NCBI RefSeq assembly: GCF_006716445.1
Contig: NZ_VFPA01000003.1
Location: 62,001-126,000 of the forward strand
Source: Pseudonocardia kunmingensis
Lineage (GTDB): Bacteria > Actinomycetota > Actinomycetes > Mycobacteriales > Pseudonocardiaceae
Length of the DNA stretch: 64,000 bases
Direction of reading: 5' to 3'
The translations under genes were made by a program, and so were the position numbers. Below are positions 1 through 20,159 of this stretch, piece by piece; position 1 is the first letter of the stretch; each line of letters opens with the position of its first letter. The notes below the pieces were generated by a model. That model saw only the letters and a program-made list of their open reading frames with translations, had not been told where the DNA came from and searched no databases.

Positions 1-29
1 ACTACATGTCGACCCTGCTCGTCAGCTGA
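1..29 (+). CDS. 3' end of an unseen upstream gene (partial)
   Basis: An open frame enters from the left edge and ends in TGA at 27-29, reading YMSTLLVS before the stop. It lies 14 bases upstream of the helicase start, with the helicase ribosome site (AAAGG) just after the stop, so the helicase may be a distal gene of an operon whose first genes are outside the window. Only nine codons are visible, so the coding call rests on frame and spacing alone. Confidence 0.3.
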
Positions 30-43
30 AAGGTACGAAACGC

Positions 44-3000
44 ATGTCGTCGAACCCCTACGGCGTCAACTTGGCCATCCGCGATGCGTACCTGCGCTAC
101 TTCGACACAGCATTCTGGCTTCGCAGCGATGACCTGATGGCAGAGCGCCGTAAGCTGCTCGAGCGGCAAGGGCGGCTCTTCGCCGATCCGCTCCTCGAGC
201 CGGTGATGCCCTATGACGCGACTGTCCCGTTGCTCGACGTGACTCGTGAGGCAGGGATCTCTGACGTGGCGGCCGAGGTCGTTGGCCGCGCTCTGTTTGG
301 TGCGTTCACTGATGACGACCAGCCCATCCTCCTGCGTAGACATCAGGCAGAGGCAGTCCGATACTCATTGACAAGCGGTGTCCACCGTCCGAACGTCGTC
401 GTGACCTCAGGAACCGGGTCCGGGAAGACCGAGAGTTTCCTTCTGCCTCTACTCCTGAGGCTCGTCGACGAGTCACTCGGCTGGGGCACCCCCACAGCGA
501 TCAACGACTGGTGGCGTCCAGTCAACGCGAACCGCTGGCAGCCGATGAGGGGCACGGGCCGCCCTGCTGCCGTGCGTGCGATCGTCTTGTATCCGACGAA
601 CGCGCTCGTCGAGGACCAGGTCGTGCGGCTCCGGCGAGCCGTCCGGCGAATCGCGGAGCGACGGCCCGAGTCGCAGCTCTGGTTCGGGCGGTACACCTCC
701 GCGACACTCGGTGGCGTTGCCCAACCGCAGGGGACATCCGACGAAGCTGCACGCGTAGCAGAGCAGCTTCGGACTATCGCCCGCGAGTTCGACGATCTCC
801 AGGCCGCGGGGTATGGAGCCGAGAACCTCGCCCAGTTCTCCGACCCGCGGCTGCACGAGATGATGGTGCGCTGGGACATGCGGGTCAGCCCGCCGGACAT
901 TCTGGTCACCAACTACTCCATGTTGAACGCGCTGCTCATGCGTGAGGCGGACACCGCGCTCTTTGAGCGGACCCGTTCCTGGCTCAGCGAGAACGCCGAC
1001 AACGTTCTCACACTCGTAGTCGACGAGCTGCACCTATACCGCGGTACTCAGGGCAGCGAGGTCGCGATGATCCTGCGTAACCTCCTAGCTCGCCTCGGCC
1101 TGGAGGCGGACAGCCCCAAGGTTCGCATCATCGCGACGAGCGCCTCGCTCGATGAAGGAGACGCCAGCCGCGCCTACCTGGAGGGCTTCTTCGGCGCGGC
1201 AAGGGACTCCTTCCACATCACGAGCGGCGAGCCCCGCGCGATCGGCAGTCCGCCGACCCTCACACGGCGAGACGTCCTCGAGGCAGCTGCGACAGGTGCG
1301 TGGTTTGCGAGCGGACCGGAACTCTCGCTCGCCATCGCGCAGGCCTGCTACTCCAAGAAGGAGGAGCGCTACCGCGCCACACCGCTCAAAGCGATATCGC
1401 AGCGCCTGTTTCCTGACGGGGACGGCGGCCCAGACGACGAGCGTGCGCTCGAAGCAGTCCTTGCTCGAATCGCCAGTGACCCGACGACGCGCGAAACGAC
1501 CATCCCACTTCGGGCGCACATGTTCGCAAGGACGGTCCGGGGGATCTGGGCCTGCTCGAACGCAGCCTGTCCCGGTGGCAACCCGGACGACTCCGACCGC
1601 ACGGTCGGAAGGCTACTCGACGTGCCCGCGTCGACCTGCCCTGACTGCGGGTCCCGCGTTCTCGACCTCCTCTATTGCTTCGAATGCGGCGATGTCAGCC
1701 TCGGTGGCTTCGTGGTCGACATTCTTGGACACGATGATGGTGGCCCAGGATGGGTGCTGGGGCCGAGTTCGGTCGAAGTGCCGGCCATGGAGCAGCAGCC
1801 GGTCTTCCGACGGAGGTACGGCGACTACATGTGGTTCTGGCCTGGGCAGAAGCCTGTGCGCGCAGACCTCGAGTGGAGCCATCAGGTTCCGTCACGGACA
1901 AGGCCGGCCAACTTCTCGTTCACGCGAGCGTCTCTCGATCCGCGGACGGGTCTGCTCGCCGCCGATCCCTTCAGCACGGCTGGGTGGATCATGACGTACG
2001 GAGGAGTTCCTGACGCCAGCAGCGATGTTCCGCCGGCGCTCCCGGAGGTATGCCCCGCCTGCGCGCAAAAGGGCTTCAACCGCGAGCTCGAGATCTACTG
2101 GCGGGGCGAGGTTCGGACACCTATCCGCGCGCACACCTCCGGCCTTGCACAGTCGACGCAGGTCTTCCTGTCGCAGATCGTCCGCTCGATGGGAGACGCG
2201 CCGTCGGACGGAAAGACGATCGTATTCACGGACAGCCGTGACGACGCGGCACGGACTGCGGCCGGGGTGGCGCGCAACCACTACCGCGACCTTCTTCGTC
2301 AGCTCGTCAGACAGTCGCTGAACGAGGCCGGTCCAGATCCCATTGAGGTCCTTCGTAAGTCGTCCGTTGACCCGACCTCGTTGAGCGATGACGAGCGGCA
2401 GGTCCTGGAGGAGACGGTTCGGCGCTGGCCGGATCTGCTCGGTCTCGTGACGAAGCAGCAGTACGTCGATCTGACCGCCGAGGAACAGGCGCGCCTGGAC
2501 CAGGCAAAGGCCGAGGGGTCGAGCACATCGGCGCCGACCAGCCTAGCGTCCCTCCGCGAGCGGGTGAGCGGACGGCTCGTGGCTCTTGGTGTGCCTCCAG
2601 CTGGTCCAGCCCCTTCGATGGCACGGACGCCGGATGGCTCGCCCTGGTACGCGGCCTACGACCCACCCGAGAAGGGTCTCTGGACGCGCCTCACCCCCGG
2701 CGACCTCGCAGTGGCTCGGCCCATCTACGCGGACAGGCTCAATCTCGGCCTCGCAGCCGCGCTGTTCGACCGCGCAGGCCGAGACATCGAGTCCGCCGGA
2801 CTCGGGTATGTCGCCCCGGCGACGATCCGGGAGCGCCCCGCTCCGGTCGATCGAGAGCGCGCAAACGAGATCCTCAGCTCATGCATTCGCATCCTGGGGT
2901 CCGCACGGCGATACGTCGGCGCTGAGTACGCCGATGCTCGGCCAAGGATCCCCCAGGTCGTTCGTCTGTACCTCGACAGAGTGAGCGAGCAGCTCGGCGT

Positions 3001-5407
3001 CGATAAGGACGAGCTGGTCGAGTGGGCGAGCGAAGAGCTTCTGTTCTCGGTCGCCTCCGACTGGCTGCTCCAGATCCAGACAGGAAGGGCCCCGCTCGTC
3101 ATCGTCCCAGCGGCGGGACGAGTATGGCGATGCCCGTCGTGCTCCTATCGACACCTGCACCGTTCTGGCGACGCCTGCGCGAACCGCGGATGCCGCGGTA
3201 CAGGGCTCGTCGAAGACAGCCTCGATGGCTTGTCGGACGACTACTATGCCTGGCTTGCGCAGCTTGAACCCCGCCGCCTCGCTGTTGCCGAGCTCACCGG
3301 GCAGACGAAGCCCTTGGACGAGCAGCGCCGTCGCCAACGTTGGTTCCGAGGCGTGCTGTTGCCCGAGCCTCGGGAGAATGTGGTCACCTGTGGCCTCGAT
3401 GTCCTCAGCGTGACGACGACCATGGAGGTCGGCGTCGACATCGGGTCCTTGCGCTCCACCCTGATGGCCAACATGCCACCGCAGCGCTTCAACTACCAGC
3501 AGCGGGTGGGGCGGGCCGGTCGTGCCGGGCAGGCCTTCTCCTATGCCGTCACCGTCTGCCGTGACCGGACGCATGACGACTTCTACTTCAACAACACGAG
3601 CCGTATCACCGGAGACATCCCGCCACAGCCGTTCCTCGACCTCGAACGCGAGCAGATCGTTCGCCGAGTGGTCGCAGCCGAGCTACTCCGGCAGGCTTTC
3701 CTGGCCTGTACGCGGCCACCTGCCTGGGCGCCTCAGGCGATCCACGGTTCGTTCGGGCCGACTGTCGACTGGCCGGGCTACCGCGAGGAGGTGGCTACGT
3801 GGCTTAGTTCTGCGCCGCAGGTCGACCGCGTAGTCGACAGGCTTTGCAGCTACACGGGCCTCTCCAGGAGCGGGATCGCTCGCCTCCGCGACTGGGCTCG
3901 CACGCGCCTTGTAGGGGCGGTGGATGCCGCAGTGGACAGAACGTCGCACCGTCCAGATCAGCTGAGTGAGCTTCTTGCTGCAGCCGGCGTCCTCCCGATG
4001 TTCGGCTTCCCCACGCGTGTGAGGTCCCTCTACGGGAAGCAAGTGAGGCGGCGGTCAGACCTCGACACGGCGGAGATCGCCGACCGGTCACTGGACATGG
4101 CGGTCTCAGCGTTCGCGCCCGGAGCGCAGGTCGTACGGGACGGTGTCCTGCACGTCGCGGCCGGCTTCGCCGCGTACGACATCAAGGGCCACCGTGCAGA
4201 AGCGAAGGATCCGCTCGGACAGGCTCTCCAGGTCGGCCGGTGTCTGGATTGCGGAGCCGTGCTGATCAGACCCTCCGGAGACACCTGCGAGTCTTGCCAT
4301 GGGCCTCTGACGAGGTTCGAGATGTTCCAGCCGCTCGGCTTCCGCACCACGTACAACGCCAAGGACTACAACGACGAGAACGAGTTCAGCCCTGGCGCCG
4401 CCCTACCTGTGGTAGCCATGGCGAGTCCGCCCACGAGTGTCGAGGAGGTCGCGGCACTATGCCTCCGGACATTCGAGCAGGCCGAAGTGGTCCAGGTGAA
4501 CGACAATCGCGCGGCATTGTTTCCGCTAAGGACATTGACCGACGGCTCCGTCATCGTGCCGGATCCGTCTCGCTACCCTCCCAACACCTGGCACATTCCA
4601 AACGGCACGGACCGGGAGCCAGCGGCGATCGGGGAGGTCCGGACGACGGACGTCCTACTCATCGAACTGGCCGGAATTGATGTTCCGGGTGGCGTTGTGC
4701 CCTCGACACCTCAGCAGCTGCCAGCAGGGAAGGCTGCTTTCTGGTCATTTGCCGAGGCTATCCGAAGGGCCTGCCAGGTAGAGCTTGACGTCGATCCGCA
4801 AGAACTCGTGGTCGGGCTCCGAGCCGCCCGACGGCATGATAGCCCTACGTACGACATCTTCGTGGCAGACGCGCTCGAGAACGGGGCAGGCTACGCCGCG
4901 GAGATCGGTCATGCACGGGCCTTCAGCGACATCCTCACGTCGACGCGGCAATTGCTCGATGAGCAGTGGGGCAGCAGCGACCATCAGATCTGCACCGCCT
5001 CCTGCCCGGACTGCCTGCGGTCGTACGACAACCGACGCCTGCACGGCGCCCTCGACTGGCGGCTAGCTCTCGATATGCTGGCGCTGGCCGCCGGTGAGAC
5101 GCCGTCGCTCGCACGATGGCTCGAGCGGGGCATGCATCTCACAGACGGACTACTTGACGACGGCTACGAGTTCGGCCTGAAACGCCGAATCCTCGACGGC
5201 GTACCGGTCCTCATGAACGAAGGAGACGGACGCGCTCTTGCAATCGGCCATCCGCTCTGGCGACGGGAGCCTCATCTGATGACGGAAGCGCAGCGCGAGA
5301 TCGGAAAACGAGCCGCCGACCAGCTCAAGTCGTCGTCCCTGCAGTGGACGGACCCGTATGAGCTGGACCGGCGTCCGCTTGCAGTGCTTCGTCGAGTTCT
5401 CGGCTAG
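44..5407 (+). CDS. giant DEAD/DEAH helicase with DUF1998 C-terminal domain (defence-associated)
   Basis: Probable SF2 DNA helicase/translocase of 1787 residues. Visible motifs: Walker [10 protein letters not shown] near residue 122, motif Ia [15 protein letters not shown]-box variant DELH near 326, motif III TSAS near 364, and [12 protein letters not shown] (motif VI) near 1150. The C-terminus (about 1535-1680) resembles DUF1998, with the Cys cluster [14 protein letters not shown] near 1650. Further Cys pairs near 503-550, 1040-1060 and 1400-1420 suggest several zinc sites inserted between the RecA lobes. It is more than twice the length of MrfA/YprA helicases and resembles a fusion of what DISARM splits into DrmA and DrmB. 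It faces the Vsr/methyltransferase operon convergently. The ATG at 44 has AAAGG about 9 bases upstream. A defence role is inferred from neighbours. Confidence 0.85.
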
Positions 5408-5454: not shown

Positions 5455-6027
5455 TCATCGAGCACTGTCTGTTGCCCACGTCGGGCGCCGATGTTGGGCC
5501 GCGTATGAAGCTGCGCTCCAGACGCCCTTATTCTGATGAGGCGAATTCGACGAGGCAAGCTGCCCGGGCGGGTCAGTTCGTGGGGCGGGGGTAGCGGTAC
5601 CGCTCGGGGCGGTTGACTCGCCGGCGAGAGCGGAGCTGGCCGCAGATGCTGGGTCGGCTCGGATGCTGCACTCCCACATTCGGACCACTGTCCAGCCGGC
5701 CTCAGTAGCGAGCGCGGACGAGCGGACATCACGTTCGCGGTTGCGCGCCATCTTCTGTTCCCATAGGAGCGCGTTCGGGCCGGTGAAGGGTGTCTTGCGG
5801 CCGTGGGCGGGGCAGGAGTGCCAGTAGCAGCCATCGACGAAGACGGCGATATTCCGGCCTGGCATCACGATGTCGGGGGTGCAGCCCTTCGCAATCCGTC
5901 GGTGGAGGCGGAATCGCGCGCCAGCGGCGTGGAGTGCCTTACGGAGGAGTAGCTCCGGGCCGGTGCCGGTCTTGCGCCGGCCGCTGAGGTGCCTGCCCGC
6001 GGTCGTGCTGGACCAGGTCTCGGGCAT
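5455..6027 (-). CDS. vsr: Vsr-type very short patch repair endonuclease
   Basis: T:G mismatch endonuclease that protects DNA from mutation where 5-methylcytosine deaminates. The first about 120 residues carry the family pattern: ELLLRKALHAAGARFRLHR, CTPDIVMPGRNIAVFVDGCY followed by WHSCPAH, then the GWTVVRMWEC strand. The ATG lies 2 bases after the methyltransferase stop, so the two are co-transcribed, the usual pairing for Vsr with a C5 methylase. The last about 70 residues are Ala/Ser/Pro-rich with no family match and extend beyond the usual length of about 140; they are probably a disordered tail or read-through after loss of an original stop. Confidence 0.9.
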   Translation of the reverse strand: MPETWSSTTAGRHLSGRRKTGTGPELLLRKALHAAGARFRLHRRIAKGCTPDIVMPGRNIAVFVDGCYWHSCPAHGRKTPFTGPNALLWEQKMARNRERDVRSSALATEAGWTVVRMWECSIRADPASAASSALAGESTAPSGTATPAPRTDPPGQLASSNSPHQNKGVWSAASYAAQHRRPTWATDSAR

Positions 6028-6029
6028 CG

Positions 6030-7127
6030 CTACTCGAACACGGTGGTCTCGCCCATGATCTCGTCGGGATCGTCCTCACCGACGATGGCCTTGACGACCT
6101 TGTAGGCGAGGTAGGGCGGGACGGAGTTGCCGAGCTGGGACTGGATGGCGTTGCGCGACCCGGTCAGCTCGAAGGTGTCGGGGAAGGTGAACAGCCGCTT
6201 GAGTTCGGGCACCCGCAGACGTCGGTTCTCCCAGTGGAACGGCCCGACGTAGGGGCCGGGCTGGGCCTGGATCGTGGGCGAGGGGCGGGCCGGGTCGAGC
6301 TTGAGCAGGAACGACCAGTATCTCTTGCGCCACCCGAACTGTGGGTCGGGATGGCCGCGCTTCTCGGTGTAGTACAGGTAGTTGTCACCCGGGGGGATCT
6401 CGGGCAGGAGGTGGCCGTAGCGGCCGGCGACAGTCTCGGTCGGCTCGGGCTCGGCCACGACGCTGGCGAGGGCCTGGCTGGTCGTGACGTGTGGTCGGGT
6501 GTCGGCGGTGCCGGTAGCGCGTCGTTCCCACTTGCCGTTGTGAGTCGGCTGTGGGTGCGGGTGCAGGGTCAGGCCCTCGCGGACGCCCATGACGAACAGC
6601 CGCGGGCGGGCCTGGGGGACGCCGAAGTCGGCGGCGTTGAGCACGAGCGGGAACGCGGTGTAGCCGGCTTCTTTGATCTCGCGCATTAGCCGGTTGAACG
6701 GGTCGCTGCTGGCCTTGTTCTTGAAGGTCAGCGCGTAGACGTTCTCGAGGATGAACATCCGAGGCTGCGCCTCGCGCAGCACCTTGGTGTAGGACTGCAG
6801 GAGGCTGGCGTCGGGGTCTAGGCCGTCGCGCTTCCAGTCCAGCCAGAACCCCGACTTCGAAAACGGAGTGCACGGAGGGCCGCCGATGAGCAGGTCCGGC
6901 TCCCCAGACTTCATATTCGCCGCGGCGAGGATCTGCTCGGTGGAGACGTCGAGGATGTCTTCCTGGATGACCGGGCGGGTCAGGGTGTCAAAGTTCTTCT
7001 CCATCGTCGCAGCCGCGTCGCGGTCGTGCTCGACCGCGGCCCGGACGGCGAAGCCGGCTTCATGGGCGCCGAGGTCCAGCCCACCGGCACCCGAGAAGAG
7101 CGAGATGGCCTGACCGCGGAACTCCAC
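6030..7127 (-). CDS. C5-cytosine DNA methyltransferase (Dcm family)
   Basis: Transfers a methyl group from S-adenosylmethionine to C5 of cytosine at a specific site. Motif I is ISLFSGAGGLDLG, motif IV GGPPCTPFSKSGFW contains the catalytic Pro-Cys, motif VI is FILENV, motif VIII is RPRLFVMG, and motif X is QLGNSVPPYLAYK, so the protein is complete. The frame is open to 7172, but the GTG at 7127 just before motif I gives the usual family N-terminus and is preferred. It lies between the restriction-like gene upstream and vsr downstream on the same strand, forming an R-M-Vsr cassette. Target specificity cannot be read from the sequence. Confidence 0.9.
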   Translation of the reverse strand: MEFRGQAISLFSGAGGLDLGAHEAGFAVRAAVEHDRDAAATMEKNFDTLTRPVIQEDILDVSTEQILAAANMKSGEPDLLIGGPPCTPFSKSGFWLDWKRDGLDPDASLLQSYTKVLREAQPRMFILENVYALTFKNKASSDPFNRLMREIKEAGYTAFPLVLNAADFGVPQARPRLFVMGVREGLTLHPHPQPTHNGKWERRATGTADTRPHVTTSQALASVVAEPEPTETVAGRYGHLLPEIPPGDNYLYYTEKRGHPDPQFGWRKRYWSFLLKLDPARPSPTIQAQPGPYVGPFHWENRRLRVPELKRLFTFPDTFELTGSRNAIQSQLGNSVPPYLAYKVVKAIVGEDDPDEIMGETTVFE

Positions 7128-7237
7128 ACAGGCATCGTCCCATGCTCGCAGCGGCGCACCGCATCGCCACACCGTGCAGGCGTCGGGTTGTCCACGGCTG
7201 GGTCCGACGGCATCGAGGCTGAGATCGCTGGACGGCG

Positions 7238-8449
7238 TCAGGAGGCTGACGAGGGCTCAGCCATCGCCTGTTCAAGAGTGTCGACCCAAGCATTGGTGAC
7301 GCGCTGTAGGGGTGCGAGCCGGTCAGAGAACTTGGGGTGGCGGTCGAGCAGGTCGGCGCGGCGGTAGCGGAAGGTCCAGACGCCGGTCGGGCCGTAGACG
7401 CAAGCGGCGACGACGTCGAACTGGTCGGGACGGTAGAGCCGCCCGGCCGGGTCGTTCTGGGTGGCCCGGGTCTTCTGGACTTCGACCTTCATGTCGCCGT
7501 TGGCGTAGCGCTGCGGCGAGCAGTTCTTGCACTCGACCCGCACCACGCGCCCGTCCGCCAGGGTCACGTCGAAGTCATGGCGGCCGTCCTCGTCCAGCGA
7601 CGCCACCTCCGCCACGCCAACCTGCGCGTCGAGGCGCTTCGCGAGGTGGTGCTCGGCGACCCCGCCGCGAACAGCGACCGCGAGCCTGTTCCGCTGCTTG
7701 ATCACCTCAAGGATCTCGACGCTGCTCATGTCGAACTGCTGCTCGAGGTCATGCAGGGTCGGCACCGTCTTGGCTTCAGGCAGCGCGGGCTGGGTGGCGT
7801 CGACGGCGGCGGTGAAGCGCAACGACGGGTCCAGCTCGAGATCACTCGCGGTGCGCTCGAGCCGGACGTAGTCGAGCAGCCGCTCAGGGCGGAACAGCAC
7901 GATTGTCTCTAGGCCGTCGCGCGCTCTCGGGGCGTCCCGGCGGGTGCCGCCGATGTTGTCGCGCTCGAACACGTGCCAGCCGTGCTCGCTGTCCAGCGCG
8001 GCCTCGACCTGGGACTGCTTGAACTCCACCGAGATGCCCATCGGGAACGGGTCGTACAGCTGGGGATCGAGGCCGATGAACAGGTCGATGTTGATATGCA
8101 CGCCCAACACGAGGGTCGTGTCGACGCCAGCCAGGTCACGCCCTACGGGATGGGCGCGCTCGGTCCAGGACTGTTGACCGCCGTACCGAATTTGGAGGCG
8201 GTGCTCGTCCACAGGACGGTTCTTCGTCAGGACCTGATTCGCCGTGAACGGGTAAACGACCAGGCCGAGGCGTTCACCGCCGGGCGTCTCGATTCCGAAG
8301 TAGACCGGCGCGCGGTCAGTCCTGCTTGCATAGAGTACCTGACCGCCAGCGCTCTCGACGGCCGCCGACAGCCGCTCGGCCAAGCCTGCGCGCTCCTTCA
8401 TGACCCGGTAGACAGGCGCGTAAGCCCGATCTGCGATGTACTCGTCCAC
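7238..8449 (-). CDS. PD-(D/E)xK restriction endonuclease-like protein
   Basis: Unrecognised 403-residue protein with a C-terminal nuclease core: HDFDVTLADGRVVRVECKNC (about residues 289-308) gives the D...ExK arrangement of PD-(D/E)xK enzymes, with a predicted helix (EVQKTRATQND) after it. The N-terminal 200 residues (EYIADRAYAPVYRVMKERAG onward) have no family I can name. It is the first gene of the cassette with the methyltransferase and vsr. The GTG start has GAAGGA about 7 bases upstream. It could be the cognate type II enzyme or a methylation-dependent nuclease; the sequence alone does not decide. The gap to the methyltransferase start is about 110 bases. Confidence 0.7.
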   Translation of the reverse strand: MDEYIADRAYAPVYRVMKERAGLAERLSAAVESAGGQVLYASRTDRAPVYFGIETPGGERLGLVVYPFTANQVLTKNRPVDEHRLQIRYGGQQSWTERAHPVGRDLAGVDTTLVLGVHINIDLFIGLDPQLYDPFPMGISVEFKQSQVEAALDSEHGWHVFERDNIGGTRRDAPRARDGLETIVLFRPERLLDYVRLERTASDLELDPSLRFTAAVDATQPALPEAKTVPTLHDLEQQFDMSSVEILEVIKQRNRLAVAVRGGVAEHHLAKRLDAQVGVAEVASLDEDGRHDFDVTLADGRVVRVECKNCSPQRYANGDMKVEVQKTRATQNDPAGRLYRPDQFDVVAACVYGPTGVWTFRYRRADLLDRHPKFSDRLAPLQRVTNAWVDTLEQAMAEPSSAS

Positions 8450-8650: not shown

Positions 8651-11600
8651 TCAGTCCTTCGCCATAAACACCTTCCGCGCCGCCGCCTGCTCCGGCGTCG
8701 ACACGTAGGCCTGCCCCACCGCCAACTGCTCCAACGCAGCCGACATGTCCTGCCCATCCCTCCCCCGCAGGAACCCAGCCACCGTCCGGCTCTGCGGGTA
8801 GTTGCACCGGAACGCGACCTTGGTGCCGGCATTGCTCAGCACGTCCTTGTGGAAGTCGTCCACCCCCTGGCTCGCGACGACCACGGCGACGCCGTACTTG
8901 CGCCCCTCCTTCATGATCTTCGGGAGGGTCACGTCACGGGCCAGGCGGTGGGCCTCGTCGAGGACGACGGCCAGGCGGAGCCGGCCGGTCTGGCCCCACC
9001 GGAACATCTCCCGGTAGACCTTCCGCAGCACGAACGCGCCGGCTGCGATCTGGACCTGCTCCATCAGGTTGTGGATGTCGAGGACGAGGCCTCGCCGCAG
9101 GAGGTCGGCGAAGGTCTCGCCTGGGTCGTCGGTGAAGAGGCCGAAGTCGCTCAGCGGGCGGATGCGAGCGACGACGTTGCGGCCACGGCCGGTGCCTTCG
9201 ACCTCGGCGACGGCGGCGGCGAGCTCGTCCATCGTCGGGCGGCCAGTCGGGGCGGTGAGGCCGCCGTAGCCGTGCTTCTCGTACACCGCGCGGACGCCCT
9301 CGTAGACCGCGTTGCGCTGGATCTCCCCCAGTCCGCAGACGTAGCCGATCACTTCCGACAGCTCCCACGCCGTCTCGCGGTAGCGACGGGGGTTGTCGAG
9401 CTCGAACGGGGAGATCGGGAGGCCTTGAGAAGCGTCGAGGACCGCGGCACCGCCGGCGGGGGCGGCGGCCATGTCGCCGTGGAAGTCCAGGACGAGGGCG
9501 GGCAGGCCCTGTTCGGCGAACGAGTTCAGGATCCGGCGGGTCGTCACCGACTTGCCCTGCCCGGGGATGCCGAGCACGAACAGGTGCGGGCTGCCGGCGG
9601 TGCTGATCCGCCAGCGGACGTCGGCGGCGTGCCGGTCCTGGCCCAGGACGACATCGACCACCTGCGGCAGCGCCGTCTCGGTGCCGGAGTCCGACGCAGA
9701 CTCTCGGGGGTGCGGCGACGGCCGCGGTGGGACGGCACTCGGTCTGCCGGCCTGCCGATCTGTGGAAGACCGGCCGGCGGGCGCCCGATCAATGCCGTGT
9801 GGGGACTGCGGGGACGGCCGAGGCGGAACCGCGGCGGCGCTCGGCCGAATTCCGGAGAGCTGGTCAGCGGAAGCCCAACCGGTGCTGGGCCGGGAGGGTC
9901 GGGGCGGATCGGCGATAGGCCCGGCTTGCCGGTCCTCAGCGGGCCGACCGGCGGGAGACGCTCCCGACGGCGGCTGCGGCGGCCGAACCGCCGCGGCATT
10001 CGACGCGCCAGGCGGCTGGTCCGCCGCGGCCGCGGCGGAGATCGCCCGTCCGGGGCCGGACGGCGGCATCCCCGCACTGTCCGAGGCGCCAGTCGATGCC
10101 GCCGAGGGCCGCACCGCGGGCAGTGGCGTCGTGTCCGAGACCCGGGACGCCGAGCCGCGCCTGTCCGGGGCCGGCCGCGGGTCTGCGGGGCCCGCCCAGT
10201 CCGACGGCTCGGCTCCCGGGGCATCGATGTCAGCCGACGGACGTGCCGCATCCCGCGCTTCCGTTCCCGTCCCGGGACCCGGTGCGGCCGGAACCACCCG
10301 CGGCCGCGGCGACGGCCGCCGCTCGGCGACCGGCTCGACTGCCCGCTTCTCCCGCCGACTCGGCGTGAACCCGGCCGCTCCGACATCCGTGGCGGACAGG
10401 ACGTAGATCGGCACCCCCCGGTGCTCGCTCGGCAGCCCGGCCCGATCCCCGAGGTTCACGACGTACCCGCGCCGCGCGATCTCCGGCACGAGCGCCCCGT
10501 CCTCGATCCGCTCGACCAGCCGTTCGACATCGGTCCGCCGCCGGTCGTCCAGCAGCCCCATGGCGAGGGCCCGGTCGGCGTGGTGCCGCAGGATCCCGCC
10601 GAGCCGGGCGCGCTGCAACTCCGCGTCGATGCGCGGGGGGTCGGTGCGGAAGAAGGTGCTGTGCAGCATGTCGACGGTGGCGTCGAGCTGGTCGACCATG
10701 TCGTCCACGAGCGCCATCGGCAGGGCGGTGGCCCGGCGGGTCTTGACCTCCACGCAGTCGATCCGCACCGTCCGCGCCGTCGTCCGGACGAGCAGCACGT
10801 CGCACCGCCGCACGCCCGCGTCGCCCGAGCGGTGGTCGCCGAAGACCTCCTGGTGGGCGTCCACGGGCACCACGATCGTGCCGTCCAGCTCGCCGCGCCC
10901 GCGCAGGTGCGCCATCAGCACGGCCAGCCCGACGGCCTCGGTGGCCAGGCTCGACCGGGCGACGAGGCGCAGGGCCAGGCGGCCGGACACCACCTGCAGG
11001 TGGTCGAGCACCGAGCGGACCGAGTTCTCCTCGGCCATCAGGTCGAGCCCGCCCATCGCGTCGGCGAGCAGCCGCTCGACCTCGCCACGGTGGGCCGTGG
11101 TGACGGTCAGGCGGGGGCCGAGGCCGTCGAGGAAGTCGGGGGCGTAGTCGAGGATGTACTCGGGACCGCTGGTGTAGACGTCCAGGCCGAGGTTGCGGTC
11201 GAGGGTCAGCACCCAGTCGGCGCGGTCGTGGGCGGTGCGCAGGGACGCCAGCTCGCCCGCGCCGAGGGTGGCGGTCAGCGCGGGCAGCCCCTCGCCCTGC
11301 TCGAGCGCCGCGCCGAGGGCGGTCTGGTAGGCGCGGTGCGCCTCGACGACGTCGGCGGCGCCCTCGCGGTTGCGCGTGCGCAGCGCCGGGGCGGTGCGCC
11401 ACACCGGCGCCTCGGCCGCGCGGCGGGTCGGGGCGGGGGTCAGCAGGTTCCGGAACGACGCTGCCGCGTCTACCGCGCCCGTGCCGTCGACCCGCAGCTC
11501 GGTGACCGCCAGGTCGGACACGACGCCGAGGTGCGCGGCGCCGGTGTCGGTGGCGAGCCGCTCGTGCGGGCGCACGCTCACCCCGAGCGGCGGGACGAGG

Positions 11601-14026
11601 TGCGACCGGCTGCCGCGGACCTCCTGCGACGCCACGGTGCGCTGCAGGTCGGTCAGGGCCGGGACGGGGTCGGTGAACGAGGGCCGGCGGCTGTACGCGG
11701 TGAGGTCGAGCCGGGCCGGCGGGGTCGCGAGGCCGTCCTCGTCGTCGGTCTCGGTGAGCACCGACTCGGCCAGCGCCCGCGCCAGGAGCTCCCCTGAGCC
11801 GGCGTTGTAGGCGAGTACGCGCAGCGCGTCCTGACCGGGGTTGGCGGCGCGGTAGGCCGCCACCCGCTCGGCGACGGCGGACGGCGGAAGATCGGCCGGC
11901 ACGTCGCGGCGGTCCAGGCCGAGCACCTCGAAGACGGCCTGCACCGCGGCGCCCGGCTCGGCCTCGGCGGCGTGCAGGTAGACGCCGGTGCCGAGCGTCG
12001 CCTCCCGGACGTAGACGAACGGCAGGCCGTCCACGCCGCGCACGGCGAACGGCAGGTTCGCGGGCGTGACCCGGCGGACGAGTCGGGCGTCCACGGACTG
12101 GCGCCGCCGCGCGGTCGCCCGGCCGACGTCCGCCAGCTCGCCGGCCCAACGGGTGAGCGTGGCGTCCAGCTCGGCCGCCCAGGCCAGCCGCATCGGGTGC
12201 AGCGGCAGCACGAGCGTCGCGGCGATCGGCGGGTGCCCGACGGTGTCGACCGACAGCCGCACCGTGTCGAGGGCGAGCAGCCCGCTGCGGATGTCCGGGT
12301 GCACCGTGGAGTCCAGCGCCCGCCGGTAGGATTGGCAGTAGCTGATCACCTCCTGACGCATCTCGTCGTCCCACGCAATCGCCTCGACCACGTCACGGGG
12401 CTTGCGTGCGGCCAGCCGTCCGAACAGGTGCCGACGCCGCTCGGCGAACGTGGGCGGCAGGATCCCGTCCAGCGGGGTGAACGCGGACGAGTCGAGCACC
12501 TCGCCGAGCCGGCCGTCCGCCTCCCACGCCATCACCCGACCGCGTTCGGCGAGCGAGCGCCGCTGCAGGTCGACGAGTGCGGGGCTCAGAGCGAGCTGGA
12601 CCGTGCGCCGCCCGCCGAGGCGCAGCTCGAAATTGCCGCCCGCCCACTGCGGCGCGCTCTCGCGGTGGTCGTCCTGCCCCTCCAGGGCCGCCTCGAGCCG
12701 CGCCTGTGCCAGCGAACGGCTGGACGCACGGCGGCCCGAGGTGGGCAGCGGATCGTCCTCCCAGCGGACGGCGAACTGCTGGCTCTCGTCGACGGCCTCG
12801 TCGCCGTTCTCCAGCAGGACGCGCTGGCCGTTGGCGTCCAGCGCCGTCAGCCGGACGACGAGCAGCGCCCCGTCGGCGAGGTCCTCCTCGGCGATGTCGA
12901 GGCGGAGGGTGCCGCGGGTCTTGTCTCCCTTCACGGTCTGCTTCGCCAGGGGCTCGGTGTCCAGCTCGCGCAGGTCTTCCGGCGGCAGTGCCTCGAGCAA
13001 CCAGCGGTCGACGGCGTCGGTCTTCACCGGGTCGGTCCGCCAGGTCAGCGTGACGGAGCCGGGCGAGCCCTCCCCCGTCTCGACGTACGGAAGGTCGCCC
13101 GCGTTCTCCTGGTGCAGGCGCGTACCCGGGCGCAGCGTGCCGTCGTCCTTGAGGAACGGGTCGAGCCGGAGGCTGGTCAGGTCGACGGGGCGCCGCTCGA
13201 CGAGCGGCCAGTGCTCGAAGGCGAGTGCGGCGGGCGGCTCCGCGAGCGGCGCCGCCCACGACGCCGCGTCCGACAGGTCGACGTCCGGGCGCGAGAGGTA
13301 CCGCGTGATCCGGTCGCGCGCGTCGCCCTCCTGCAGCTCCGCCGTGGTCAGCCGGTCGGCCACCGACGCGACCGCACGGCTCGGGCGGGAGATCGCCCGC
13401 ACGCAGGCGACGTTGCGCGCGAGGCGGCCGACGAGGTCGGGGCCGCCGAGGTCGGGGACCAGCCCGACGACCCAGAGCGCGGCGCCCGCGGTCGTCCAGG
13501 TCGGGTCGTCGGCGACGGTCGCGAGGTAGCGCGCCCAGGCCTCGACGGGCCGGCTGCGCCCCAGCTCCCGGGCGACGCGCCGCACCCCGTCGGCGACGTC
13601 GGTGCCGGCCAGCTCCCCCAGCAGCTGCTCCCCCGCCTCGGCGAGCAGGGCGGTGATGTCGATCCGGGCGAAGCTGTTGTCCAGCGAGCTGGCCGCGACA
13701 CCGCTGCCGACGGGCACCAGCAGCACGAGCCGGCGCTGCTTGCGGTTGCGCAGCTCGATCGCGCGCTCGGCCGGGACGGTCAGCGCACCGTCCACCTGCC
13801 CGGGGTGGTCGGCGAGCACGTGCACGTCCGTGGAACCGGGCGGGAGCAGCGCGGACACGGCCGTGGCGAGCCGGGCCGCGTCCCCGCGCCGGACGCTGTC
13901 GACGCGCAGGCAGTGCCCGGCGCCGTGCTCGTCGAGCCGGGCGGCGAGCAGCCGGGCGAGCACTGCGACCACCTGCTCCGGCAGGTGCGGCTGGGCCGTC
14001 GGCGGGGTCAGGGTCGGCGCGGCCAT
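8651..14026 (-). CDS. HerA/FtsK-type ATPase with internal PD-(D/E)xK nuclease (MAD8/DptH-like)
   Basis: A 1791-residue translocase-nuclease candidate. The N-terminal about 900 residues are of unknown fold, with a PLHPMRLAW motif I associate with DptH-like proteins. Near 1076-1095, CDVLLVRTTARTVRIDC then VEVKTR gives a D-x-ExK nuclease core. Residues about 1220-1455 are a Pro/Ser/Ala/Arg-rich linker. The C-terminal motor has Walker A GIPGQGKS near 1489, Walker B LAVVLDEAH near 1690 and a HerA-like FRCNYPQSRTVAGFLRG segment. The ATG at 14026 shares one base with the TGA of the preceding gene (TGATG), so translation is coupled. It probably threads or degrades DNA under control of the kinase partner; that role is inferred from MADS and Dpt relatives. 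Confidence 0.75.
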   Translation of the reverse strand: MAAPTLTPPTAQPHLPEQVVAVLARLLAARLDEHGAGHCLRVDSVRRGDAARLATAVSALLPPGSTDVHVLADHPGQVDGALTVPAERAIELRNRKQRRLVLLVPVGSGVAASSLDNSFARIDITALLAEAGEQLLGELAGTDVADGVRRVARELGRSRPVEAWARYLATVADDPTWTTAGAALWVVGLVPDLGGPDLVGRLARNVACVRAISRPSRAVASVADRLTTAELQEGDARDRITRYLSRPDVDLSDAASWAAPLAEPPAALAFEHWPLVERRPVDLTSLRLDPFLKDDGTLRPGTRLHQENAGDLPYVETGEGSPGSVTLTWRTDPVKTDAVDRWLLEALPPEDLRELDTEPLAKQTVKGDKTRGTLRLDIAEEDLADGALLVVRLTALDANGQRVLLENGDEAVDESQQFAVRWEDDPLPTSGRRASSRSLAQARLEAALEGQDDHRESAPQWAGGNFELRLGGRRTVQLALSPALVDLQRRSLAERGRVMAWEADGRLGEVLDSSAFTPLDGILPPTFAERRRHLFGRLAARKPRDVVEAIAWDDEMRQEVISYCQSYRRALDSTVHPDIRSGLLALDTVRLSVDTVGHPPIAATLVLPLHPMRLAWAAELDATLTRWAGELADVGRATARRRQSVDARLVRRVTPANLPFAVRGVDGLPFVYVREATLGTGVYLHAAEAEPGAAVQAVFEVLGLDRRDVPADLPPSAVAERVAAYRAANPGQDALRVLAYNAGSGELLARALAESVLTETDDEDGLATPPARLDLTAYSRRPSFTDPVPALTDLQRTVASQEVRGSRSHLVPPLGVSVRPHERLATDTGAAHLGVVSDLAVTELRVDGTGAVDAAASFRNLLTPAPTRRAAEAPVWRTAPALRTRNREGAADVVEAHRAYQTALGAALEQGEGLPALTATLGAGELASLRTAHDRADWVLTLDRNLGLDVYTSGPEYILDYAPDFLDGLGPRLTVTTAHRGEVERLLADAMGGLDLMAEENSVRSVLDHLQVVSGRLALRLVARSSLATEAVGLAVLMAHLRGRGELDGTIVVPVDAHQEVFGDHRSGDAGVRRCDVLLVRTTARTVRIDCVEVKTRRATALPMALVDDMVDQLDATVDMLHSTFFRTDPPRIDAELQRARLGGILRHHADRALAMGLLDDRRRTDVERLVERIEDGALVPEIARRGYVVNLGDRAGLPSEHRGVPIYVLSATDVGAAGFTPSRREKRAVEPVAERRPSPRPRVVPAAPGPGTGTEARDAARPSADIDAPGAEPSDWAGPADPRPAPDRRGSASRVSDTTPLPAVRPSAASTGASDSAGMPPSGPGRAISAAAAADQPPGASNAAAVRPPQPPSGASPAGRPAEDRQAGPIADPPRPSRPSTGWASADQLSGIRPSAAAVPPRPSPQSPHGIDRAPAGRSSTDRQAGRPSAVPPRPSPHPRESASDSGTETALPQVVDVVLGQDRHAADVRWRISTAGSPHLFVLGIPGQGKSVTTRRILNSFAEQGLPALVLDFHGDMAAAPAGGAAVLDASQGLPISPFELDNPRRYRETAWELSEVIGYVCGLGEIQRNAVYEGVRAVYEKHGYGGLTAPTGRPTMDELAAAVAEVEGTGRGRNVVARIRPLSDFGLFTDDPGETFADLLRRGLVLDIHNLMEQVQIAAGAFVLRKVYREMFRWGQTGRLRLAVVLDEAHRLARDVTLPKIMKEGRKYGVAVVVASQGVDDFHKDVLSNAGTKVAFRCNYPQSRTVAGFLRGRDGQDMSAALEQLAVGQAYVSTPEQAAARKVFMAKD

Positions 14027-15684
14027 CAGGAGTCTCCGAGTGGGTGGCGGACGACCTGCACGGAGAAGTCGTCGGAGAGGCTGTCGAAGCAGCCGAGCAG
14101 CTGCAGCCGCAGCGTGAACGCGTCGAGGTTCGCGGTGGCCGCAGCCCGGGCCTCCGCGCCGTCGAGGAACGCGGGCGGGGAGTCGATGAGGATCCCGAAG
14201 CGGTGCCGCAGCGCGTCGAGCACCTCGCGCAGCGGCATCGTCGAGCGGGTGCTGACGCCGTCGGGCTCCACGAACACGGCGAGCAGCAGGGCGGTGAGCA
14301 GCTCGTCGGTGGGGGCGTAGCGCCACGAGCGCCGGCTGCGCGTCGACCCGCGCAGGACGCCGTACGGCTTCTCCAGCCCGCCGACGGACCAGAACCAGCT
14401 GACGGCGTTCCTGACGGCCCTGCTCTGGTTCACGTGCTCCAGGACGTCGAGCAGCTTGTCGAGCTCGCCGTCCTCGCTCGCCTGCACCCGCTGCAGGAAC
14501 TCCAGCTCCGGCTCCGAGGCCTCGCCCGACGCGGTGGCCTCGGCGACGATGTCGTCGATCCGGCCCATCGCGTAGGTCTCGACGCGGCGGTGCTCGCGCA
14601 GCGACGCCAGGTGCACGAGCTGGTCGGCGCGGCTCAGGCCGGCCATGCGCTCGTTCTCTCCCGGGATCCGGGGCAGCGCCTGCTCGACGACGACGAACGC
14701 CATGCGGTCGCGGAACGCCAGGCGGACCCGGTCGAGGTCGCGCTCGACGCAGCGCCGCGACATGCGGTCGGACTCGGAGCCGAGGTCGCCGGTGAAGTCG
14801 CAGTAGATCTCGACCGGGGACGCCGGGGCGGGCCCGGTCGCCATGTCGGCGGGCCGCTCGCCGGTGCGCAGCAGCTCGCGGGCCGCGGCGTCGGCACGCA
14901 GGCTGAACGTGAAGACGCCCAGCGCGAGCAGCGCGGCGAAGCTCGACATCAGCGACGGCACGGGCAGCCGCTCGCCGTAGGCGCGCAGGTGGGCGAGCAG
15001 GATCGCGCCGAGGTCCGCGGCCACACCCGGGAGCGGGCCGTCGGGCGACGCCGCGTCGATCTCGCGGGCGTCGGCCATCGCGAAGCCCTCGACGAACCGG
15101 AACTCCAGCAGCGCCCCGATGTCGAGCCGGTCCGCGTCGGCCAGCTGCGGCTCCCACCGCGGCTCGGGTCCGATCGCGAGGCCACGGCCGACGGTCCGCG
15201 TGACCAGCTCCCGCAGCTGTGCGCGGGCCGAACCCGCGCCGCTCGGCTCGGCGCCGCGGCGCTCCAGCTCCGCGAGCAGCAGGCCGTAGACGACGTCGTC
15301 GACGCCCCGGTGCCGGGTGCGTTCCTTCGGCAGTCCTGCGCGGTAGGCCGCGAGCGTCAGCGGCGCGACGGCCAGCATCTGCTCACCGCCCTTCTTGCCC
15401 CGCCCGGCCCGGCCCATGTCGACCACGCACGAGCGCAGCCAGCCGTCCAGCAGGGCGAGGTCGTCGTCGGTGGTGAAGCCGCGGACGTGCCCAGCCGCCA
15501 GCATCGCGTCGCGGTAGCCGGCGAAGTCGGCCGCGTCCGTCCGCGAACGGCTGGACCGGCCGCCCTTCACGCACATCTCGAACAGCTGCGGCAGCACGCG
15601 GTCGGTGTCGGTGTCCAGCAGGGAGAACACCGTGAGCGGCCGGTACTGGTAGGTCCGCAGCGGCGCGGGCAGCGGGATGCTCAC
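14026..15684 (-). CDS. unknown 552-residue defence protein (MAD7-like position)
   Basis: No enzymatic motif is visible. The N-terminus SIPLPAPLRTYQYRPLTVFS starts a mostly helical protein with acidic clusters and a C-terminal segment ending VQVVRHPLGDS. The GTG start overlaps the TGA of the kinase gene (GTGA) and its TGA overlaps the ATG of the ATPase gene, so the three are translated as one unit. Position and size match the protein between kinase and ATPase in MADS (MAD7) and the DptG position in Dpt restriction; this is inference from order. The frame runs on upstream for another 1340 codons only because the kinase gene's main frame is the same one. Confidence 0.75.
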   Translation of the reverse strand: MSIPLPAPLRTYQYRPLTVFSLLDTDTDRVLPQLFEMCVKGGRSSRSRTDAADFAGYRDAMLAAGHVRGFTTDDDLALLDGWLRSCVVDMGRAGRGKKGGEQMLAVAPLTLAAYRAGLPKERTRHRGVDDVVYGLLLAELERRGAEPSGAGSARAQLRELVTRTVGRGLAIGPEPRWEPQLADADRLDIGALLEFRFVEGFAMADAREIDAASPDGPLPGVAADLGAILLAHLRAYGERLPVPSLMSSFAALLALGVFTFSLRADAAARELLRTGERPADMATGPAPASPVEIYCDFTGDLGSESDRMSRRCVERDLDRVRLAFRDRMAFVVVEQALPRIPGENERMAGLSRADQLVHLASLREHRRVETYAMGRIDDIVAEATASGEASEPELEFLQRVQASEDGELDKLLDVLEHVNQSRAVRNAVSWFWSVGGLEKPYGVLRGSTRSRRSWRYAPTDELLTALLLAVFVEPDGVSTRSTMPLREVLDALRHRFGILIDSPPAFLDGAEARAAATANLDAFTLRLQLLGCFDSLSDDFSVQVVRHPLGDS

Positions 15685-18600
15685 TTCGACCTCCGCTCGA
15701 TCACGCCACCAGGAGCGACACCCGCGACCAGCGAGCTGCCGGAGCCGTCGACGATGCGGACGGTCCGCGCCGGCTCCAGCCGCAGCCGGTTGCCGAAGCC
15801 CTCGATCTCCTGGCGCAGCGCGGCCGACGCGACGTCGCCCAGCACCTCGCCGTCCGCGGAGCGGAACAGCAGCTCGGCGGTGTCGAGGGTGATCCGCAGC
15901 CGGGCCCCGGAGCGGTGCCGCAGCTCCAGCTGGTCGGGGAAGGACTCGACGTACGGCGCCTCCGCGGTGGCGGCGCGCAGCGCGAACTCGTCCGCAGGCA
16001 GCTCCTTGATCACGACGATCGACCGGACCGCCGGGTCGTCGAACACGCGATCGCGCAGCGCGAGCCGGTCCTCCTCCGGGTAGCCGACGAAGGCCAGCAC
16101 CCGCGACACCCCGAGCAGCATCCGCGGCAGCGCCGCGGCGGGATCGCCGAGGGCCTCCAGGTAGGCGTCGAGGTAGCGGTAGCTGCGCACCTCGGCGCGC
16201 GCACCGGCCCCGTCCCAGGGCACCGAAGAACAGCGAGCGCTTCAGCCCGGTCATCGCGGCCGTGTCGAGGGACGCGAGGTCGGGCACCAGATCGCGTCGG
16301 TTGCGCGCGGCGCGGGCGGCGCCGGGTGCGGGCAGGACGGCCGGGTCGAGGTCGGCCCACTCGCGCACCAGGTAGTCACCGCTCTCGGCGGCGAACGCGA
16401 GGTCGAAGGCGCGGCGTCCGGCCGCCGGGTCGAGGCCCTGCTCGACGTCGGCGTGCACGGTCTCGCAGGAGGTGTCGCCGGTGAGGAGCCAGCCGAAGGC
16501 GGACCGCAGGTCGCGGACGGTGGCCCGGCGGCGCCTCCGCAGGTGGCTGGTGAGCAGCAGCTCGGACACCGCGCGGCGGGCGCGGCCGGAGCGCAGCTGG
16601 TCGGCGTTGGCCCGCATCGGGCAGACGTCGCGGGCCTCGCAGCCCTGGCAGACCTCCCAGCGGTGCAGGGACGTCAGCGAGGACAGGATGCTGGCGCCCA
16701 GCGCGGGACCGTCGAGGTCGGGCAGGGCGAGCGCGCGCCGCTTGAGGTCGACGAGCACCACCCGGGCGTCCGGTTCCGCGGGGGCACCGCCGCGCAGCTG
16801 CCGGTCGAGCTCGGCGGTGAGCTCCGGGTAGCGCTCGCCGTGCTCGGCGCAGAACTGCGCGATCCGGCCGTCGTTGGCGGCCAGCAGCACCGTGCGCGGG
16901 CCGGGCTCGTCGACGGCCTGACTGATCAGAGCGTCCGACGAGAGTTTCCCGTGCGACTCGGACGCGTCGTAGACCGCCGCGTAGGTCCGCCCGCCGAGGC
17001 GCTTGCGCCACCCCGCGGCGTCTTCGTGCAACACGGTGGCACCGGCCTCGTCCAGGGCGGCGCCGACGCGCACCAGGAACGAGGTCTTGCCGTCGCCCGG
17101 GTTGCCGGACAGGACGACGACGTCGAGCCGTCCGTCGACGATGGCGGGCAGGAGTTCGGCGTCGAGGCGCGTGGTGGCGTAGGTGTCGCGGGCGAACCCG
17201 TCGTCCAGGCCGCGGTTGCCGGCGTTGCCGATCGCGCTGTGGCGGTACAGCCCGCGCAGCGCGTCGACCGTCGGGTTGACGACGCGGCGCCCCGACGCGA
17301 CGACCGTGTCGCTCGCCCGCAGCACGACCTGCGCGAACGCCGCGGCGTCCCGCGGCCGCTCCCCCGGCTCGTAGGCGACGGCCGAGTACAGCGCGTCCAG
17401 CAGCGCGCGCCCGAAGCGCTGGACGTGCTCGGCCGAGGGCGGGACGAGCGTGCGCCGCTCGTCGAGCCCCGCGCCCGCGTACGGGAGCCGACCAAGCATC
17501 GCCTGCAGCACCGAGGCCGCGGCGCTGTAGATGTCCGCAGACGGCGACCACTGCCGGCGCGCCCACACCTCCGGCGCCGTGTACGGCGGCGAGCCCACGG
17601 CCGACTGGGCGGCGTCCGCCTTCGCCGCCAGCCCGAAGTCGATCAGCACCGCGCGGCCGTCGTCCCGGACGATGATGTTGTTGGGGCTGACGTCGCGGTG
17701 GTACAGCGACTGGGCGTGGGCGTCGGCCAGGCCGTTGAGGACATCGACCGCAATCCGCCGGGCCTCCTCGCGCTCCAGCAGCCGGCTCCCCGCGACCAGG
17801 TCGTGCAGCGTCTGGCCGGGGACGTACTCCTGCACCAGGACGCCGGGCTCCGGGTGCGGCAGGCGGTCGTCCATGCGCGCGCAGTGCAGGCTGCGCAGCG
17901 GCCAGGCGTTCTCGAACTCGGCCTTGACCTGCTCCGGGGACACACGGTCGGGCCGCAGGAACTTCAGCGTGCGGTGCTTGTCGAGGTTCTCGTCGTAGGC
18001 GAGCCAGGTCGTGGCCCAGGCGCCTTCGCCGAGCCGGCGCACCAGCCGGAAGCGGCTCGCGAGCACCGCGCCCTCGGCCAGCTCCTGGTCCGGGACCGGC
18101 TCGGGCGGGGGACGCAGCGCCTCCACCGCCTGCGTGGCGGTGAGGCGCTCCCCGGCGTCGGGCGACAGGCAGCGGGCCAGCACGTGCCCGGCCTCGGGGT
18201 ACGCGGCGGCGCGCTGCCGCGCGACATCGTGGTCGGGCAGGTCGCTCGCGTCGCCGTGCAGCCACTGCACCAGGCACATCGCCAGGCTGTAGACGTCGTC
18301 GGCGGGCTGGTGGAAGGCCAGCGGCACGCCCGGCGGGCGGAAGCCGGCCGAAGGGTGGTCGTCGTCGAGGGACGGGGCGATGGTGGCCGCCGACGGCAGG
18401 TGGGCGCGTCCGAAGTCGCGGAACCGCACCCGGCCGTCCGGGGTCACCTCGACGCTGCGCAGCTGCAGGGCCCGGTGGGTGATCTCGAGCTCGTGGACGT
18501 CGGCCAGCGCGGCGAAGGCGTCGCGGACGACCGGGACGCCCTGGCGCGGCGGCACCCGGCCGCTGGCGTCGTGCTGCGGGCGTGCGGCGTGGGCGAGCCG

Positions 18601-19449
18601 GCCGAGGCTGGCGCGCTCCTCGACGATCACCGGTGTGACGCGGTAGCCGTCCCAGTCGAACCACCCCTGGACCCGGCCGGTGCGCTCCTTCGCGGCCAGC
18701 GCGACCAACGCGTCGTGCTCGCGCCGGGCCAGCCTCCTGGCCTGGTCCGGGTCGTCGACCCCGTCGATCGGCACGCACGTCAGCAGCGCCTGCTCCCCCG
18801 CAGGGGTGCGTGCCGAGAACACGCGGGAGTTCTCCTGCGGAGGCAGCTCGGCCAGCACCTCGTACTGCATGATGTGCGGCGGCAACTTCCCGGGGTCGGG
18901 ATGCGGCAACCCGAGCAGGAAGGTGATCAGCGCCTGCCGCACCTGTCCCATTCCCGGAGGGAAGCCGGCGTCCAGGGCGGTGAGGACGGTCGCGGCGTCG
19001 GCGAGCCGGAGCACCACGTGCTCGCCGAGGTCGGCGGTGTCGTCCACCGTCACGTCGTCGTAGGAGAGCACGACGTGGGCGAAGACCGGACGGGCGTGCT
19101 TCGGCAGCTGCCGCAGCGCCTGCGGCCAGCCCGGCACCTTCTTCTTCAGCCGTCCGGCGAGCACCTTCGCGGCGTGGTTGACCTGGGCGACCGGGTTGTG
19201 TCGGGGCTCGCCTTTGACGTACCAGGACACCTCCCCGGTGATGACGTGCGGCCCCCACGCCTTCTCCTCGCACACGAACACCGCGCGCTCGCCGACCACC
19301 ACCAGGTCGAGATCGGCCGTGCCCATCCCGCTCGGCACGCTCCGTCCGGCGACGACGTCCCACTGCTCGGGCAGGCTCTCGGCCAGCCGGCGTGCCGCCT
19401 TCTCCTCACCCGGACCGTGCCAGTCGGCGAGGACGTGCAACCTGGCCAT
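15681..19449 (-). CDS. NERD-protein kinase-P-loop ATPase (MAD6/PglW/DptF-like), frameshifted
   Basis: About 1256 codons read in two frames. Residues 1-200 resemble a NERD nuclease-related domain (DLDLVVVGERAVFVCEEKAW). About 220-350 is a kinase-like fold lacking HRD (RFRDFGRAH). About 466-700 is a complete Ser/Thr kinase: GEGAWATTW loop, LKFL lysine, HRDVSPNNIIV near 583, DFG near 602. Near 785 is Walker A GNPGDGKTS, then CQGCEARDVCPM near 933, a DptF-like combination. At about 16,220 the reading changes frame: upstream ends in KRSLFFGAL, and the true continuation (WDGAGARAEV...) is in the next frame to the TGA at 15681. Total length is 3n+1, consistent with one extra base, perhaps in the CCC at 16,215-16,219. 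ATG 19449 has GGGAGG upstream. Confidence 0.8.
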
Positions 19450-19687
19450 CAGCCGGCCTCCCGTCCGGGGGCGCGGACGTGCAGGGCTGTGCCGTCGGCC
19501 GGGGGCGCACCGGCCTCGTCGTTCGTCATCGCATCCCGTCTGCCACCGGCGGCTGGGGGCGCCGGAGTGTCGCAGGAAGGCGCGGCGGTCCGCGTGTGAC
19601 GGCCGTCCCCCTGCCCGTGCTGATTCAGGAGTCGGTGAGGGACGACGCTGCGTTACGCCGCGCTTCCTCGCCGTGCAGCACTCTGCG

Positions 19688-20119: not shown

Positions 20120-20159
20120 GCGAGGACGATATCAACGGCGCCGAGGCCGGGAGCGCGAA

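Follow-up and report, generated by a model that had tools for sequence, protein, structure and literature searches.

A probable stand-alone DndFGH-type restriction module with a NERD-kinase DndF beside a probably separate cytosine methyltransferase cassette in Pseudonocardia kunmingensis

The 64,000-nucleotide stretch analyzed here (the window) is C3:62001-126000 of the Pseudonocardia kunmingensis genome, which comprises 9.14 Mb in 10 contigs. Positions 8651-19449 of the window are filled by three overlapping genes on the minus strand, which we call K, G and H; a reading of the letters alone (the sequence-only reading) had correctly described them as a coupled trio. K (19449-15681) encodes a protein with a NERD nuclease-like domain, a pseudokinase, a Ser/Thr kinase and a DndF/SspF-type P-loop core. 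G (15684-14026) encodes a MAD7/DndG-type protein of 552 residues, and its GTG start overlaps the stop of K. H (14026-8651) encodes a DndH/MAD8-type protein of 1791 residues with a PD-(D/E)xK-like motif and a C-terminal HerA/FtsK ATPase. A gene for a nuclease-like protein, a cytosine-C5 (C5) methyltransferase gene and a gene for a Vsr mismatch endonuclease follow. We consider it probable that these three genes encode a stand-alone restriction module of the DndFGH type, in which DndF has an N-terminal NERD domain, a pseudokinase and an active kinase, and that the adjoining C5 cassette is a separate entity.

The domain assignments in K are based on Pfam matches to NERD and protein kinase domains and on a stretch similar to SspF (8e-19 in PADLOC). 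When K was aligned with 16 relatives from its own clade, the acidic and E-K residues of the NERD domain were found to be kept. In the first kinase there is no catalytic aspartate; the second keeps the lysine, HxD and DFG in the relatives, with the R of HRD replaced in three rows. The DndF core carries the Walker A motif GNPGDGKT and an ND motif in 17 of the 17 rows. The sequence-only reading had proposed that K fuses a NERD domain, a kinase and a DptF-like ATPase, and a NERD domain, a kinase and a DndF-type core are all present, although they do not lie in one clean frame because of a one-base shift that is taken up below.

G had been regarded as an unknown partner in the trio; it can now be assigned to a named family, as it passes the NCBIfam model NF047733 (MAD7) with 467 bits against a cut-off of 410. 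An SspG profile from PADLOC also matches part of the protein. The predicted fold of G resembles that of DndG: the AlphaFold2 model has a mean predicted local distance difference test score (pLDDT) of 85.4, and DndG (7exx) is its only PDB match with an E-value below 0.001 (E 3.5e-5, template modelling scores 0.44/0.53). Since G has the DndG fold in this model, it is likely to be a DNA binder. In H, Pfam recognizes HerA/DUF87, and the HerA part matches DndH (1e-23) and mad8 (1e-21) in PADLOC. The aspartate and the E-V-K residues of the PD-(D/E)xK nuclease are invariant in 15 aligned sequences, and the HerA sensor Q is kept in 17 rows. A model of residues 440-1226 (pLDDT 84.3) hints that H may also carry an inactive methyltransferase domain, as expected in DndH, for which an N-terminal SWI2/SNF2 domain and beta-sandwiches are expected as well. 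Kinship of the trio to both MAD6-7-8 and DndFGH, as originally proposed, is confirmed.

In order to learn what usually accompanies such a trio, we compared 32 other trio loci, found by searching for G: 28 were returned when genome contigs were scanned with a G alignment, and four came from 394 sampled genomes of the class, where a wider alignment with MADS included matched 15 genomes. The nearest relatives of the trio are in Pseudonocardia, and K, G and H are all present in 32 of the 32 loci; two of these, L083 and L087, are truncated at contig ends. Two others, L067 and L068, appear to be near-duplicates. On plasmids, G had no match at E 1e-5. Profiles built from six C5 proteins and three Vsr proteins, those of the window included, found neither a C5 methyltransferase nor Vsr in any of the 32 loci, within the stretches read; in loci outside the training sets the same profiles recovered C5 in G733, L024, L025 and G043 and Vsr in the last three of these. 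Within the 164 kb around the window's trio they match only the known genes. Ssp-type phosphorothioation genes were likewise found in none of the 32 loci, and seven Ssp-type proteins had no match within the 164 kb, while the controls matched in five of five cases in both searches. DndC had no match in the P. kunmingensis genome, in a search that matched 5 of 14 control genomes, none above the cut-off. The only locus with a match to the N6 methyltransferase of MADS was L076, where it lies at the margin of the region covered. In total, 31 of the 32 loci of the window's clade show none of the marks sought, and a recurrent association with C5 genes is not seen, either in the full set or in the 24 loci with at least 4 kb read on both sides. 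Given that no relative has C5 or Vsr, the placement beside C5 genes is unique to this genome among the loci read, an outcome that the sequence-only reading had itself listed as counting against it, and the earlier proposal of a restriction system tied to 5-methylcytosine finds no support in this clade.

PMC10853773 (Rakesh, Aravind and Krishnan 2024) describes DndFGH as a stand-alone system and reports that some DndF proteins carry NERD together with inactive and active kinases; in PMC12839542, the NERD-pseudokinase-kinase architecture is common to PglW and DndF. As far as it is described there, the window trio is the stand-alone DndFGH with a NERD-kinase-kinase DndF of PMC10853773. The two are alike in their three-gene order, in a NERD-pseudokinase-kinase-DndF protein followed by DndG and by a DndH with nuclease and HerA parts, and in that modification genes are dispensable; no architectural difference was seen. 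This reading is built on gene content, domains, conserved motifs, the predicted fold of G and the missing linkage to C5 genes across the loci read. The SspF, SspG and SspH/DndH profiles of the SspFGH/DndFGH systems that operate with phosphorothioation also match parts of K, G and H, but the trio differs from these systems in having no DndC match in the genome and no Ssp-type genes nearby, and in the added NERD and kinase domains. PglW of BREX type 2 shares with K the NERD domain followed by pseudokinase and kinase, but the NCBIfam PglW model reaches only 65.8 bits, far below its cut-off of 990, and the C-terminal half of K is DndF-like. An assignment to PglW/BREX was therefore rejected. The profile comparison suggested along with the sequence-only reading thus gave a divided answer: MAD7 is above its cut-off, MAD6, MAD8 and PglW are below theirs, and SspF/DndH-type profiles match.

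MADS, in the composition used for this comparison, consists of MAD1-5, among them an N6 methyltransferase, and MAD6-7-8. The K-G-H order of the window is that of MADS loci, K has the same domains as its counterpart in a MADS locus, the MAD7 profile is passed and the MAD6 and MAD8 profiles match below their cut-offs, all of which would be expected if the trio were a MADS system that had lost MAD1-5. The scores themselves argue otherwise. With the MAD6 profile, K obtains 349 bits against a cut-off of 460 and two intact relatives obtain 345 and 349, whereas a MADS locus of the same order reaches 791; with the MAD8 profile, H obtains 50.7 bits against a cut-off of 175 and the one relative tested 51.9, whereas the same MADS locus reaches 223. 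G is only 23-24% identical to four MADS MAD7 proteins, and a tree of G (long branches, midpoint root) separates 32 non-MADS rows, with the window and without L068, from the four MADS rows with 100/100 support. The N6 methyltransferase profile matches 7 of 7 MADS loci, two of which formed its training set, as well as an eighth, G501, in contrast to the single match among the 32 trio loci. Beyond the MADS loci read, three more genomes (G537, G548 and G556) are of MADS type. Seven MADS flank proteins had no match within 164 kb of the trio; three of the seven match five of five other MADS loci and four match two of five. One MADS N6 methyltransferase had no match in the P. kunmingensis genome, in a search without a control that proves nothing alone. 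The earlier statement that no MADS or dnd genes accompany the trio therefore holds for the 164 kb and, for DndC, for the genome. The clade is so wide that a recent loss of MAD1-5 does not fit, while an ancient loss is possible. We judge the derivation from a reduced MADS system very unlikely and conclude that this clade either is the sister of MADS or branched off from it long ago, and that it is not a recent MADS wreck. In the literature searched, outside of which the defining MADS paper lies, no publication was found that joins MAD7 and MAD8 with MADS phage defense.

Some trio loci carry additional genes. A UvrD-like superfamily 1 helicase of about 520 residues is encoded directly upstream of K in 14 of the 32 loci (for example L070:4589-6196) and in none of seven MADS loci; the window and the Pseudonocardia and Actinomycetospora loci read have no such gene directly upstream of K. 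The word UvrD is absent from the main text of PMC10853773, and a literature search found no publication that combines DndI, DndFGH and a helicase. In L076, a CHAT-domain protein with a weak NB-ARC match is encoded directly after H (L076:16577-20827). In L044, L048 and L052, distant DruE-like helicases (30-34% identity) are encoded no more than about 20 kb away from the trio.

In the window, two small genes without Pfam matches lie directly upstream of K (19688-20693), and they have counterparts upstream of the trio of P. nigra, where a GmrSD-like gene stands between them and K. Genes about 15 kb from K match genes that adjoin the trio in MH-G8. These shared neighbors speak for the trio being the older resident of the genome. 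Its GC content at third codon positions (GC3) is 0.94-0.97, and the host median is 0.96 (26 window genes beyond 26 kb); values are 0.75-0.77 for DruF, DruE and Vsr and 0.86-0.89 for the nuclease-like and C5 genes.

The genes beyond H were named by the sequence-only reading as a C5 methyltransferase, a PD-(D/E)xK nuclease and Vsr; the C5 methyltransferase and Vsr are found, and the candidate nuclease is an MTaX1 protein whose match to PD-(D/E)xK is weak. The MTaX1 protein (7238..8449, minus strand; Pfam MTaX1 1.5e-16) has a PD-(D/E)xK-like C-terminus in which a D...ECK motif is visible, while PDDEXK_5 (0.014) is below the cut-off. It is likely the nuclease of the C5 cassette, as far as its sequence indicates, and we do not count it as part of the trio; as a general partner of such trios it was rejected, because only one of the 394 class genomes, its own, contains it. 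The C5 methyltransferase (6030..7172, minus strand) matches Pfam DNA_methylase with 5.9e-55, and Vsr (5455..6027, minus strand) obtains 62 bits against a Pfam cut-off of 27. Convergent with this cassette on the plus strand lies DruE, the YprA-type helicase of Druantia (44..5407; PADLOC DruE2, 1633 bits), preceded by the end of DruF (1..29), whose gene call crosses the window edge and starts at about C3:58937; the part left of the window obtains 974 bits with DruF2. DruE is treated in PMC12458937. To the left of DruF, an SNF2 helicase matching DrmD with 681 bits (L009:11501-13711, equal to C3:53501-55711) adds to the defense genes of the island. DruE and the DruF end had been missed in the sequence-only reading, and with them the C5 genes have another neighbor besides the trio.

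We take positions 5455-8449 to be a restriction-type cassette that lies close to a Druantia II-like locus or inside it. The likeness to Druantia type II, with DruE and DruF present, concerns these neighbors only and not the trio. A more specific proposal is that the C5 enzyme serves the adjacent Druantia II system as its DruM, with Vsr and the nuclease as accessories. The best PADLOC model for the enzyme is indeed DruM2 (332.6 bits). Eight other DruE/DruF loci were compared, five from genomes with a full-length DruF2 (17 of the 394 genomes have any match) and three from plasmids, the first three of 153 records; C5 genes lie near DruF-DruE in six of them and Vsr in two. However, the window enzyme is only 26-30% identical to six Druantia C5 enzymes over 185-430 residues, the MTaX1 nuclease occurs in none of the eight loci, and DruG had no match among the proteins scanned. 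The trio is also absent from all eight, one of which has a lone kinase match (24%). We hold the DruM proposal as tentative and less likely than not; as it concerns the neighbors only, it agrees with our reading of the trio as a stand-alone DndFGH module. Twelve plasmid records match the C5 enzyme, of which four were read. The best relatives in this set are from Amycolatopsis (65%), Paracoccus (38%) and a Haladaptatus plasmid (38%), the last of which adjoins a SacI-type nuclease. Pfam gave no match for the genes beside the Amycolatopsis relative, and by profile none of them is Vsr, so that this record is no example of a nuclease-methyltransferase-Vsr cassette.

Nevertheless, the trio and the cassette are on the same strand, with 201 bp between H and the nuclease-like gene, and they could be proposed to form one system, in which the C5 enzyme marks the host, Vsr repairs deamination and K-G-H cuts DNA without the mark or with foreign 5-methylcytosine. 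The need for some mark would be in line with the report in PMC8092258 that SspFGH without its mark harms host cells. Further encouragement comes from elsewhere. Weak MAD7 matches in genome G174 (same family) and genome G291, both from the same taxonomic order as the window, turned out to be FGH trios without a kinase and with C5 and Vsr genes around them (L025:5996-16422 and L024:9590-19998, respectively). A profile of F from these two matched 16 of the 394 class genomes, namely the 15 of the wider G-alignment search and G043, whose trio (L145:10300-20595) is encoded on one strand in the order C5, F, G, H, Vsr. The three actinobacterial loci thus have three gene orders. In G174 and G043, PADLOC places F, G and H in the SspF, SspG and SspH/DndH families. 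Between these two genomes the F proteins share only 23% identity over 316 residues, and the C5 enzymes about 28%. Neither Ssp-type phosphorothioation genes, in the 40-60 kb around these three trios, nor the MADS N6 methyltransferase, near them, were found.

Against a single system at the window stand the absence of C5 and Vsr from all 32 trio relatives and the window C5 enzyme itself, which shares only 25-29% identity with the enzymes adjoining the three kinase-less trios and is closer to those of restriction type. Furthermore, the C5 cassette owns a nuclease-like gene, and its GC3 differs from that of the trio. The F query also retrieved 16 distant plasmid records, and of the eight read, seven are kinase-less FGH trios on proteobacterial plasmids, all of which have a gene of the phosphoadenosine phosphosulfate reductase family along with other Ssp-type neighbors and lack both C5 and Vsr; the eighth, from Piscinibacter, is a MADS-type locus with N6 methylase and kinase. 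We therefore regard the union of trio and cassette in one system as quite unlikely and take the C5, Vsr and nuclease-like genes to be a defense cassette separate from the trio, situated between it and DruF-DruE.

Ten kinase-less trios were thus read, three actinobacterial ones with C5 and Vsr and seven plasmid ones with phosphorothioation-type genes, from which it follows that such trios occur with different DNA marks. A broader proposal would be that FGH trios swap their self-mark between phosphorothioate, N6-methyladenine and 5-methylcytosine, that C5-FGH-Vsr is the version guarded by 5-methylcytosine, and that the window trio is a kinase-bearing instance which recruited a C5 cassette. We find this proposal unlikely as a whole. 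The C5-linked kinase-less trios are few, and two of the three were noticed by chance; another 12 genomes from the genus to which G291 belongs contained none, and a search for them in viral contigs matched a pattern in 145 stretches, of which none proved a relative. Among the publications listed in a literature search, ranked by how many of the subjects they contain, none brings together DndFGH or SspFGH, a cytosine term and Vsr. In PMC10853773, as far as available, cytosine methylases are tied to DndDE/CxC modification systems, and the term Vsr is absent from its main text. The three loci are the best support for the idea of a C5-linked FGH system, though not at this locus: the idea finds no support in the window's clade and survives for these kinase-less actinobacterial trios.

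Several observations weigh against our reading of the trio as a stand-alone DndFGH module, the first being those same three kinase-less trios, which do adjoin C5 and Vsr genes. G passes the equivalog cut-off of MAD7, so that NCBI naming would make it MADS, and two Armatimonadota loci of the comparison set (L085 and L087) are only 24-27% identical in G, as distant as MADS. In eight of the 32 loci, at least one side spans less than 4 kb. For H 440-1226, the first- and second-ranked PDB matches are methyltransferases, but with E-values of only 0.007 and 0.0098, so the inactive methyltransferase domain is hinted at, and neither it nor the target-recognition domain expected in DndH is confirmed. 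The estimated contamination of the assembly is 6.83%. Finally, K contains a one-base frame shift near 16.2 kb (window 16200-16224), which divides it into a 5' part from 19449 to about 16224 and a 3' part at about 16223-15681. The GC3 phase changes at this site, and MH-G8 and other intact relatives keep one frame there; only on account of this shift does a mechanical open reading frame at 14026-19701 fuse K and G. P. nigra (L063) has a different break nearby in K and another in H, and a programmed frame shift was rejected on account of these different positions. This copy of the trio is therefore either broken or misassembled, while intact copies exist in other species, and judged from its sequence it may not constitute a working system in this strain.

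In an intact copy, G, as a likely DNA binder, and the P-loop core of DndF would recognize invader DNA or an infection signal, the HerA motor of H would pull the DNA and its PD-(D/E)xK domain would cut it. The kinase and NERD domains might control this cutting or serve as a second effector. These activities and the sensing step are predictions from sequence, and in nearly all relatives they would have to operate without a methyltransferase of their own encoded beside the trio.

We regard the locus as an ordinary defense island, in which a known kind of trio from a well-separated clade lies beside unrelated defense genes. The trio stands between MADS and DndFGH on a branch that is well separated, and beside nearly all of the loci read no modification gene was found. 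This sharpens the question of how DndFGH separates self from non-self, and the C5-FGH-Vsr loci could show directly whether a mark on a base is able to stand in for phosphorothioate.

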